Positions 32,311 to 34,894 of a DNA stretch of 64,000 nt are shown one piece after another. Under the pieces are notes generated by a model. The model did no database searches. It was not told where the DNA came from and saw only the letters and a program-made list of their open reading frames with translations. Where the stretch lies: positions 71,702,696-71,766,695 of the forward strand of contig CM060188.1 of NCBI GenBank assembly GCA_030549335.1. Reading direction: 5' to 3'. This DNA comes from Pontederia crassipes. Its lineage: Eukaryota > Streptophyta > Magnoliopsida > Commelinales > Pontederiaceae. The translations under genes were made by a program, and so were the position numbers. The number at the start of each line of letters is the position of its first letter. Position 1 is the first letter of the stretch.

Positions 32311-32637
32311 GTTATAACATATATTGGGAAAACGTTTTTACACCACCACTCAACCACCCCCTTACCATTTTTTTGTGTTGAATGATACATTTTCCTCCTG
32401 ACATCTTTCTTCTCGACTTCCTTCTGGTGTGTTAATACGTTGGGTCCGCGACTTCCTTCCTGTGTGTTAATACGTTGGGTCCTGTTATCACCTATTGATC
32501 TTGCAGAAGCAGACTCTCCTCTTTGCACTAACGGCTGTATGATTTCCCCTCTTTGCACTAACGGCTGTATGATTTCCAAAATGACTGATGTTATGTTGAG
32601 AACATTCTGACTCTCCCCTTGACTGATTTCGGCGGCA

Positions 32638-32808
32638 ATGGGGGCTTACAAGTACGTGTCGGAGCTGTGGAGGAAGAAACAGTCTGACGTGATGCGCTTC
32701 CTGCTGCGCGTGCGCTGCTGGGAGTACCGTCAGCATCCCTCCATCGTCCGCGTTACCCACCCAACGCGCCCCGACAAGGCCCGCCGCCTTGGCTACAAGG
32801 CCAAGCAG
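32638..32808 (+). pseudogene. RPL15: 60S ribosomal protein L15 (eL15), exon 1 only
   Basis: 57 codons, [20 protein letters not shown] through RRLGYKAKQ, end exactly at a GT donor (32809). This is the usual first exon of plant eL15, about 204 residues in full. The second exon (which should begin GYVVYRVRVRRGG) is not found in the window. FLLRVRC and VTHPTRP differ from the usual FLQRVRC and VTRPTRP, suggesting relaxed constraint. It lies inside a retro-insert and lacks most of the protein, so it is a dead fragment, although its leader and start codon are intact. Confidence 0.9.
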
Positions 32809-34013
32809 GTAGATATGTGTCCGCTGTCTGGGATATTGTTGTGATCCTTGGGTGCGTTTGAATACTTACATGACATGACAAGGTCGCCTGTTGTCGATTG
32901 CCTTCATTTATGAGGTTTCTCGAAATAATCTTGATTATTCGGTACGTTAGAGTTCTTTTAGCGTATATGATGTTTTGCGAGTGACATTTAAATGGGGCTT
33001 TGCACCTTCTAGTCGAGTTTTGATTGACTATGCATTTCTAGCGACTGGTCAACGTATAATTGACTCTATGCATGGTTTGTCCGTCGATGTGCCTGCTGCT
33101 CTCCCAATTACTCTAATAACTTAATGAGGCGGACAAAAGTCTGAAAAGTTAAGCAGGGACTGATTAGAAATAGTTGTCAGGCTTAGTTGGATCGACAAAT
33201 GTTGAATGGTCTCCTTGTAAGTTCTCTTTTGGGGGTGGCAGGAAGGGTAAAACATAGAGAAGGAAAATGTCTTATTACCCTCGATTGGATGTATTATGAA
33301 AAAGGAAAGGAGTGGAAGTCCCTTCCATTTTCCTCTCAACACTTCACTTTTCTTTCAACCCTGAAATGAAATGTAAAGGAGGGGAAATCTCTAATTGAAC
33401 AGAATTTCTATTTAACCATATTTAATTAGGCATAAATATGTCTATGAAAGGATATATTCATCCAAATAGTATTATCATGTAATTTCCATTCTCTTTCCTT
33501 CCCCTTACTCATGTCATCCAAATAAGATTTGATTAATACTTCGCCTCCATTTTCTTCCCGTCGATTAACCTTTTCCTCACAATAAATCTTCAATCAAATA
33601 GAGCGTTAATAGTTATGTACAAATTTGAGATGCAACCTTAAATGTTATTGTCAGCCAACCATATGTGTTGATTTTATTCTTATAATTAGTGCAATTTTAT
33701 TGAATTATCTATGTGACATTTTTATTGTTATATGTAACCAAACATTCTACTTATTCATGTTCTTGAAGTGAAGGTAGTATAATCTGTGTATGCATGACAC
33801 GGTTTTTATAGTGTTAAATAGATGAAGAATTTTTTTGAGGGGATTGAAAAGTCATTGAACCTCAAAGGAAAAATACAATTTCTAACTGAATTATGTAGCT
33901 CAGCGTTTTGCTAGTCATGTCTTGCCCCATTGATATGTTATTGTATCTACCCTCCTTACCTGCAGAAAGAAAATATGAGATGTATTTTCATTGTTTACAC
34001 AGTTCTGTTGTTT

Positions 34014-34195
34014 AACTCCGTCTATGTTTTATAACCGGTCCCAAGTCCGGATGAAGGAGGAGGGTTGTATTAGGCTCCGACAGCCAGCGTAAAATCCTGT
34101 CGAATTTCATGAACATGAATCAACGAATATGGCGTCGTATGATCCATGTAGCCGACCTCACCTAGTGGGATAAGGCTTTGTTGTTGTTGTTGTTG
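34014..34195 (+). mobile_element. SINE-like copy forming the 3' end of the RPL15 insert
   Basis: AACTCCGTCTATGTTTTATA to (TTG)n, full length and close to the copy at 19343-19520. It has no direct repeats of its own: the only matching repeats lie outside the RPL15 fragment. It was therefore already in the RPL15 intron before the joint insertion, or joined during it. Confidence 0.85.
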
Positions 34196-34894
34196 TATGT
34201 TGAGAACATTCTTAATCATGCTATGTTTATGTATGATGAGTGGTGATCTTTGTGATGTTTTCATCACCTAAACTTTTGTAATTTTTGTAACTATTTATGC
34301 ATCAATAAATGCTTTGGATGATTAACATTCTGGTCAGTCATCCTTTTCCCCCTAAAAAACATCTCTAAATATGCACCCGTTCAACATGAGCGAAATAGAA
34401 ACCCCTGGCCCTTTAGATACTTATGCTTTGATGTTATGGTTACGAGTGTGACCACCCACTCCAGAAATCTGTCCACACCCATAAGCCAGTTCCAACTGTT
34501 GTTCTGGCAAATGATTTCTTATGTTAAGAAATCAGTAGTTCTAATTGATTGTTTCAGAATTGATTTTTAGTTCTAAAAACAGAATTGATTTTAGTTTGAA
34601 GGTCTGTGTATGTGATTTATTTGTTTGCTTTTTTAGGTTGGTTATATTGTTTTAGAATCGTTACACTTGAATTGGGGTTGCCTCCTATGTACTGTTTTGT
34701 TTGTGCTGTATCATTTAACTGTTTTGTTTGTTTCTTGGTCTCTTCTGTTTTTATTCATGATCGGACAATTTGTAGAGTATCCGAGTACAACATATCTCTA
34801 TTTAGTAGTGTTTCAAAAAAAAAATCTTTTCACCAAATTCACGATTTGAATTTATTGTTGTATAAAAATCTTTTCACCAAATTCTCAAAATTGT

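Follow-up and report, generated by a model that had tools for sequence, protein, structure and literature searches.

The window analysed here, 64,000 nucleotides long, lies at C6:71702696-71766695 in the Pontederia crassipes genome (C1, C2 and so on are contig numbers), and the genome searched was the window's own, of 1.13 Gb. The genes and repeats of the window indicate plant DNA. Neither the tail nor the block nor the RPL15 sequence described below had a match in scans of viral contigs, genome contigs and plasmids, and none of the 18 pattern-matching stretches in one scan was confirmed. One stretch is present in the window as two diverged copies, S1 (30726-36816) and S2 (46030-50130), pieces of which are 84–95% identical. 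S1 carries an insertion, here called block 1, which spans 32609-34195 (1,587 bp) and is flanked by perfect 17-bp direct repeats. Its parts are, in order:

32592..32608, forward strand: left target-site repeat TATGTTGAGAACATTCT; S2 holds the empty site
32609..32622, forward strand: 14-nt 5' filler GACTCTCCCCTTGA, absent from the leader of the C9 RPL15 gene
32623..32641, forward strand: last 19 nt of RPL15 exon 1 (leader and ATGG), joined directly to exon 2; the C9 gene reads ATGG/GTGCGC..GAAG/GGGC
32642..32808, forward strand: RPL15 exon 2 (residues 2-57)
32809..34013, forward strand: retained RPL15 intron 2, ending 9 nt before the 3' splice site of the C10 paralogue
34014..34195, forward strand: full-length SINE tail of 182 bp, which starts with AACTCCG and ends in (TTG)n; copies on C2, C15 and C12 have the identical junction
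34196..34212, forward strand: right target-site repeat TATGTTGAGAACATTCT

Other features were noted in the window. An insertion of about 1.9 kb in S2 (47456-49383), absent from S1, begins with TGTAACGCCCC and ends near GACGTCACACC. Long inverted repeats (207 nt, 89% complementary), with GACGGTT..AACCGTCG units, surround about 4 kb at 50364-54832, perhaps a DNA transposon with subterminal repeats. A 148-bp tandem repeat is present in 2.6 copies at 6490-6948, and part of it recurs close by in inverted orientation.

When the RTE insertion (described below) and block 1 are removed from S1, and one repeat is kept, the remainder aligns straight across the target in S2. This agrees with an earlier sequence-only reading of the locus, in which S2 was taken as the uninterrupted target of a 1588-bp block between perfect 16-bp repeats; the repeats are indeed perfect, with lengths of 17 bp for the repeat and 1,587 bp for the block. 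From two copies alone it is formally possible that the two 17-bp repeats recombined in S2 and the block was lost there. Such a loss would still need a previous insertion, however, as the repeats and the TTG tail show, and S1 has two further tail-ended insertions that are absent from S2, whereas one insertion in S2 is absent from S1. We therefore regard loss from S2 as hardly credible.

The first 14 nt of block 1 are probably junction filler and not the transcription start of RPL15. The start CTCTCCCC had been compared with that of a ribosomal gene, a proposal that we reject, since the leader of the C9 gene (CTGATTTCGGCGGCAATGG) is different. The filler agrees with target DNA at 32512 in 11/14 positions; 28 of 2,000 shuffles and 33 of 2,000 draws of 14-mers from the window scored as high, so that an origin from the target is only suggested.

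Positions 32638-32808 code for residues 1-57 of eL15 (protein search E 2.6e-31; Pfam Ribosomal_L15e 1.5e-24) and are followed by GT at 32809. A protein search for RPL15 revealed nine exon-2 places in the genome. The three genes with a recognisable exon 1 (L007, L008 and the gene on C9) have an exon 1 ending in ATGG, the donor GTGCGC, and exon 2 after GAAG. The same GAAG acceptor precedes exon 2 in L003-L006, for which no leader was recognised in the DNA examined. Two of these, L003 (C8) and L006 (C12), carry RTE/SINE 3' ends of about 50 nt in intron 2, in sense orientation and flanked by repeats. No copies of these two genes were found among the matches listed in the RPL15 protein and intron searches, and such short ends may be insufficient as a handle.

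Block 1 and the copy on C2 both read ATGG/GGGC. Intron 1 has thus been removed exactly, giving a junction absent from the genomic genes, while RPL15 intron 2, after codon 57, is kept in block 1. The exact removal therefore proves an RNA intermediate, and block 1 is a reverse-transcribed, partly spliced RPL15 RNA. The transcript had originally been described as unspliced, which does not hold, since intron 1 (after ATGG) is gone. It had also been set apart from ordinary processed retrogenes and from 3' transduction, and rightly so: intron 2 is kept and the insert ends in (TTG)n, unlike a processed retrogene, and the host sequence lies 5' of the SINE, unlike a 3' transduction. Capture at the DNA level, or segmental duplication of gene pieces located beside SINEs, would fit with the retained introns, and S1 and S2 are themselves a duplication. 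This explanation is already refuted by the removal of upstream introns exactly at the splice sites. In addition, each insert finishes at the SINE tail and target-site repeats flank the inserts, and we consider it exceedingly improbable.

The apparent source of block 1 is the RPL15 gene on C9, which is 98.6% identical to exon 2 and the start of intron 2 over 415 nt, the intron part corresponding to 32809-33052. At window position 33052 this gene jumps from intron 2 to the end of exon 3, and everything from 33053 onward through most of exon 3 is lost, apparently by deletion at a shared ACTGG. Further into the intron, the paralogue on C10 aligns with 32850-34013 in two pieces, both about 93% identical and separated by an insertion of about 790 bp. 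A comparison of 32809-34013 with the intron of a parental RPL15 gene had been proposed as a check on the origin of the block, and these two genes bear it out. The C10 paralogue has no SINE, and its exon 3 is reached 9 nt after the point where the SINE of block 1 begins. No RPL15 gene today has a visible SINE at the shared position; the source SINE is not visible because C9 is deleted there, and we infer that it once lay in intron 2 of the C9 gene. The core of the original proposal, an RPL15 transcript copied from an intronic SINE tail by RTE-type machinery, is therefore supported, apart from the SINE itself, which cannot be seen in C9 after the deletion.

Other host 5' fragments ending in the same tail, a search for which had also been suggested at the outset, are three more RPL15 copies and five copies of a callose-synthase-like gene. 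The intron–SINE junction is identical in all four RPL15 copies, located on C6 (block 1), C2, C15 and C12. The C15 and C12 copies are cut short within the intron and have target-site repeats of 15 bp (C15) and about 12 bp (C12, by reading). The truncated copy on C15 (L044) lies directly behind another SINE, the repeats of both overlapping. For the C2 copy, about 8.6 kb of upstream DNA yielded no target-site repeat. With its 98% match and its SINE, this copy was considered as the parental gene, and was rejected as such: no further RPL15 exon was found in 17 kb and intron 1 is absent, which makes it a sister copy.

Differences between the RPL15 copies are much more numerous in the SINE than in the intron. 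The tail on C12 differs from the SINE consensus at 5 positions and those on C6, C2 and C15 at 8–11, and 26 of the 29 consensus differences in the latter three are C>T or G>A, an excess that fits deamination of methylated cytosine. At SINE column 8, C>T is present in 4/4 tails of RPL15 copies and in 3/21 reference SINEs. The C6 and C2 tails share 4 states, C15 and C6 share 1, and C15 and C2 share 2, compared with a mean of 0.28 for pairs of reference SINEs; this tail comparison is biased, 20 of the 21 reference SINEs having been picked as nearest to the C6 tail. We read the tails as derived from one source SINE, with copies that later lost methylated cytosines. Different SINE donors are not strictly excluded, because C15 shares only 1 and 2 states with C6 and C2.

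The tail belongs to a SINE family that is short, multi-copy, and characterised by a fixed 5' end and target-site repeats of its own. Two further elements in the window are informative in this respect:

19343..19520, forward strand: solo SINE with 15-bp repeats (by eye), the element starting with AACTCCG
31610..32313, forward strand: 5'-truncated RTE LINE flanked by the short repeat TTATAACAT (by eye), its final ~65 nt being the SINE tail

The SINE 3' end, with its terminal (TTG)n, is thus common to an RTE LINE of the same genome. The same 3' end is found on an RTE LINE in a tetratricopeptide repeat (TPR) gene on C13, and the open reading frame at 31805-32281 of the window element is 88% identical over 160 residues to this C13 copy, which has an RVT_1 domain. 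The insertion in the C13 TPR gene (1,079 bp) was examined as another possible chimera and rejected, as it is an ordinary truncated RTE. A genome search with the first 167 bases of the SINE gave 5,295 first-look candidates, and of the 40 that were scored and listed, among them the window's own, 39 start at position 1. No clear A box of a Pol III promoter was recognised by eye in the 5' part of the SINE. In 20 sampled SINEs, picked as near relatives of the C6 tail, an adjacent repeat of at least 10 nt was found by script in 12, and by eye in a 13th (L083). L081 has a 10-nt repeat match in a wider stretch. In three of the other seven, a pattern search of the 3' flanks for exact matches gave no upstream partner, namely for L078 and L085, nor, again with exact matches only, for L090, the flank of which is itself a repeat. 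The 3' flank of L085 (C16:55182188, 55181996) recurs 192 bp downstream, suggesting a second SINE right behind the first. The survey of these 20 ordinary SINEs revealed no further transduction, and transduction therefore looks like a minority event, for which we claim no rate.

The next insertion in S1, here called block 2 (about 34864-36474), also ends in a SINE tail. It has the same build as block 1, and a visible source gene, and was missed by the sequence-only reading. Its parts are:

34864..34884, forward strand: 21-nt 5' filler, an exact copy of target DNA 34820-34840
34884..35952, forward strand: 5' half, RNA of a TPR gene (C13/C14), consisting of 17 nt of one exon, the next exon to 34978, and a retained intron
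34901..34912, forward strand: 12-nt TPR micro-exon
35947..36322, forward strand: 3' half, callose-like exon with spliced junction 35953/35954, donor 36080 and retained intron
36320..36474, forward strand: 5'-truncated SINE tail, the truncation being that of the SINE in the source gene on C14

In the TPR part, two spliced junctions surround the 12-nt micro-exon and are followed by the retained intron. This part gives a TPR_12 match in Pfam (E 4.1e-5, below the curated cut-off), and the gene was found on C13 and C14. The TPR-exon patterns used in the genome search matched the window itself only, because they span the micro-exon junction, which is absent from the genomic gene. The gene of the 3' half we tentatively take to be callose synthase; its pieces matched no Pfam family, and a search against solved structures gave one weak and unrelated match. 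The TPR and callose-like parts join at a shared 6-nt TCCAGA. This microhomology, and the lack of a contiguous source for the join, are those of a template-switch chimera; a change of template by the enzyme, between two half-spliced host RNAs, is the probable cause. The target-site repeat of block 2 is short and ambiguous, running into the TTG tail.

For the callose-like gene the source can be seen. The gene on C14 holds a truncated SINE in its intron, in sense orientation and between TATATGTGTCAAGC and TATATGTGGCAAGC (one mismatch), whereas the paralogue on C13 is empty at this site. The SINE has the same 5' truncation in the gene and in the copies. A search with the intron only gave 7 places from 7/7 first-look candidates, namely the 2 genes and 5 copies (C6, C1, C3, C14 and C17). 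Four of the five copies (k14a, k3, k17 and block 2) cross the spliced junction TCCAGAG/GTGATG, where the genes have an intron, and the fifth (C1, k1) stops within the exon. Their target-site repeats are 19 bp in k14a, 14 bp in k3, 15 bp in k17 and 18 bp in k1. The 3' flank of k17 has a second match on the left, of 18 bp and about 60 nt further up; the 15-bp one adjoins the insert. The source SINE in place, the empty paralogue and the SINE-tailed copies show the whole cycle in one gene.

Over 354 sites, k3 and k17 are identical to the C14 gene, while k1 differs at 1 site, block 2 at 4 and k14a at 5. Each copy seems to have arisen from the gene independently, because at none of the 354 sites is a new state shared by copies only. 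Alternatively, the copies could be secondary offspring of one master chimera that spread as an element of its own. The 5' ends are similar within each family, and k14a and block 2 share three states not found in the source gene, both of which would speak for such a chimera. These states are, however, those of the C13 paralogue and thus probably older states of the gene; moreover, k3 and k17 show no difference from the gene, and the 5' ends of the copies do differ from each other. A single master is for these reasons unlikely as the source of all copies, although one intermediate common to k14a and block 2 would also fit.

Taken together, we consider it highly probable that these insertions arose by 5' transduction by a SINE acting in trans, from partly spliced host transcripts. 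This reading connects the repeats, the empty site, the spliced upstream junctions, the SINE of the callose-like source gene, the junctions common to several copies and the 3' end that SINE and RTE LINE have in common. Host sequence lies 5' of the SINE inside one repeat pair in the copies, except for C2 (no repeat found) and block 2 (short and ambiguous repeat), and at the callose-like source locus on C14 the same host sequence immediately precedes the SINE. The process would begin with a (TTG)n SINE in sense orientation within the intron of a host gene. Nuclear transcripts with the upstream introns spliced and the SINE-bearing intron kept would be taken up by the RTE LINE machinery via the SINE tail, and reverse transcription would be primed at the target nick on the TTG repeat. 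The reverse transcriptase would then read through SINE, intron and exon, cross the spliced junction and stop, after which the copy would be sealed between target-site repeats. Sometimes the enzyme would switch to a second host RNA, as in block 2, or letters derived from the target would fill the 5' end. That RTE proteins carried out the copying is predicted from the shared tail.

The chimeras could also have been made by template switching, the enzyme starting on a free SINE RNA, reaching its 5' end and jumping to a host pre-mRNA. In RPL15 the junction lies exactly at the SINE 5' end, where nearly all listed SINE matches start, the SINE tails of these copies differ more than their introns, and block 2 does show a switch between callose-like and TPR RNAs at TCCAGA. 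Jumps of this kind would hardly be expected to give one junction common to four RPL15 copies, or to reproduce a SINE that sits in place in the callose-like gene with the truncation seen in the copies. Unlike a template-switch chimera of the U6-L1 type, the callose-like–SINE join has a contiguous source on C14. Furthermore, there is no poly-A at the junction. Compared with 5' transduction, switching from free SINE RNA is thus very unlikely.

The reason why reverse transcription stopped at the observed positions we can only infer. Upstream of the spliced junction, the RPL15 copy on C6 matches the preceding exon over at most 19 nt and that on C2 over at most 16 nt. In the callose-like copies this match is 17 nt in k17, 19 nt in k3 (14-19 with repeat overlap) and 12 nt in k14a (7-12), and in block 2 it is 7 nt for the callose part, where it ends at the switch point, and 17 nt for the TPR part. 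None of the seven RNA segments that cross a junction (two RPL15, four callose-like and one TPR) reaches 20 nt upstream; 111 nt of upstream exon are available in the callose-like gene and 79 nt in the TPR gene. With uniformly placed stops, the chance that the five callose-like and TPR cases all fall within 19 nt is about 2e-4, or 1.2e-3 without the block 2 switch point; both figures are post hoc and assume independence, and they leave out RPL15, being confined to the two genes with a measured upstream exon. The C15, C12 and k1 copies end before any junction and are uninformative here.

The exon junction complex is deposited 20-24 nt upstream of junctions, according to the part of PMC10226599 available to us, and a polymerase arriving from the 3' side would stop at about the observed ends. 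Decay from the 5' side is described there as leaving ends at 25-30 nt, on the other side of the complex. It may be speculated that the RTE reverse transcriptase copies nuclear pre-mRNA and is halted by exon junction complexes, the 5' ends being their genomic footprints. We offer this tentatively, at slightly less than an even chance. Seven segments are a small number, and the callose-like ends at 12 and 7 nt fall well short of the complex. Furthermore, the TPR micro-exon places two junctions 12 nt apart, and a complex at the second should have stopped the enzyme earlier. The RPL15 5' ends could simply be the start of the RNA. Among the matches listed in a search of titles and abstracts, no paper linked retrotransposition to the exon junction complex.

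The usual view of plant SINEs is that introns carry them along passively. In the present case, one and the same intronic SINE seems to have sent host exon, splice donor and intron to new sites several times, and once RNAs of two genes were joined. This would be a route to exon shuffling in which splice signals are kept, and it implies that RTE machinery acts on RNA that is nuclear and half-spliced. Should the 5' ends indeed mark exon junction complexes, retrocopies would be a fossil record of protein on pre-mRNA, and the footprint could be counted in any genome rich in RTE-tailed SINEs.

5' transduction is already established for SVA and L1 (PMC12593883, PMC13174262). The comparisons that follow rest on the parts of the cited papers that were available. 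Human SVA_F1/MAST2 (PMC12593883) resembles the present case in being a composite element moved in trans whose 5' end carries the first exon of a host gene. In the human case, splicing joins the exon to a cryptic SVA site, in what was likely a single event, and the tail is poly-A, whereas here the SINE-bearing intron is kept, each gene gave rise to several events, and (TTG)n forms the tail. L1 5' transductions, exemplified by RAP1GDS1-L1PA2 (PMC13174262), share with our copies an intronic element that is transcribed from a host promoter together with host exons, as well as independent insertions, with their own repeats, from one source. In that case splicing joins the host exons to an L1 of nearly full length, whereas here a short SINE ends an unspliced intron.

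Among plant elements, TS SINE and RTE-1_Stu of the Solanaceae (PMC3747384) are, by their description, similar in having a shared 3' end and TTG repeats, with the difference that the available part describes no host gene cargo. The Au SINE of wheat (PMC5787218), likened likewise by description, is about 181 bp, common in introns and a proposed cause of intron retention; mobilisation of a host transcript is not described in the part available. Au-like SINEs are described as having a poly(T) end in place of TTG (PMC3747384). In Schistosoma, gene duplicates flanked by RTE elements are not a precedent, DNA-level recombination having been argued for them in the part of PMC3434034 available. Among the papers listed in literature searches, which covered few subscription papers, none showed by its title and abstract a plant SINE or RTE case with host gene cargo. 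Relative to these systems, what is new is the plant RTE/SINE version of 5' transduction, its repetition, and 5' ends that never extend past 19 nt upstream of a spliced junction.
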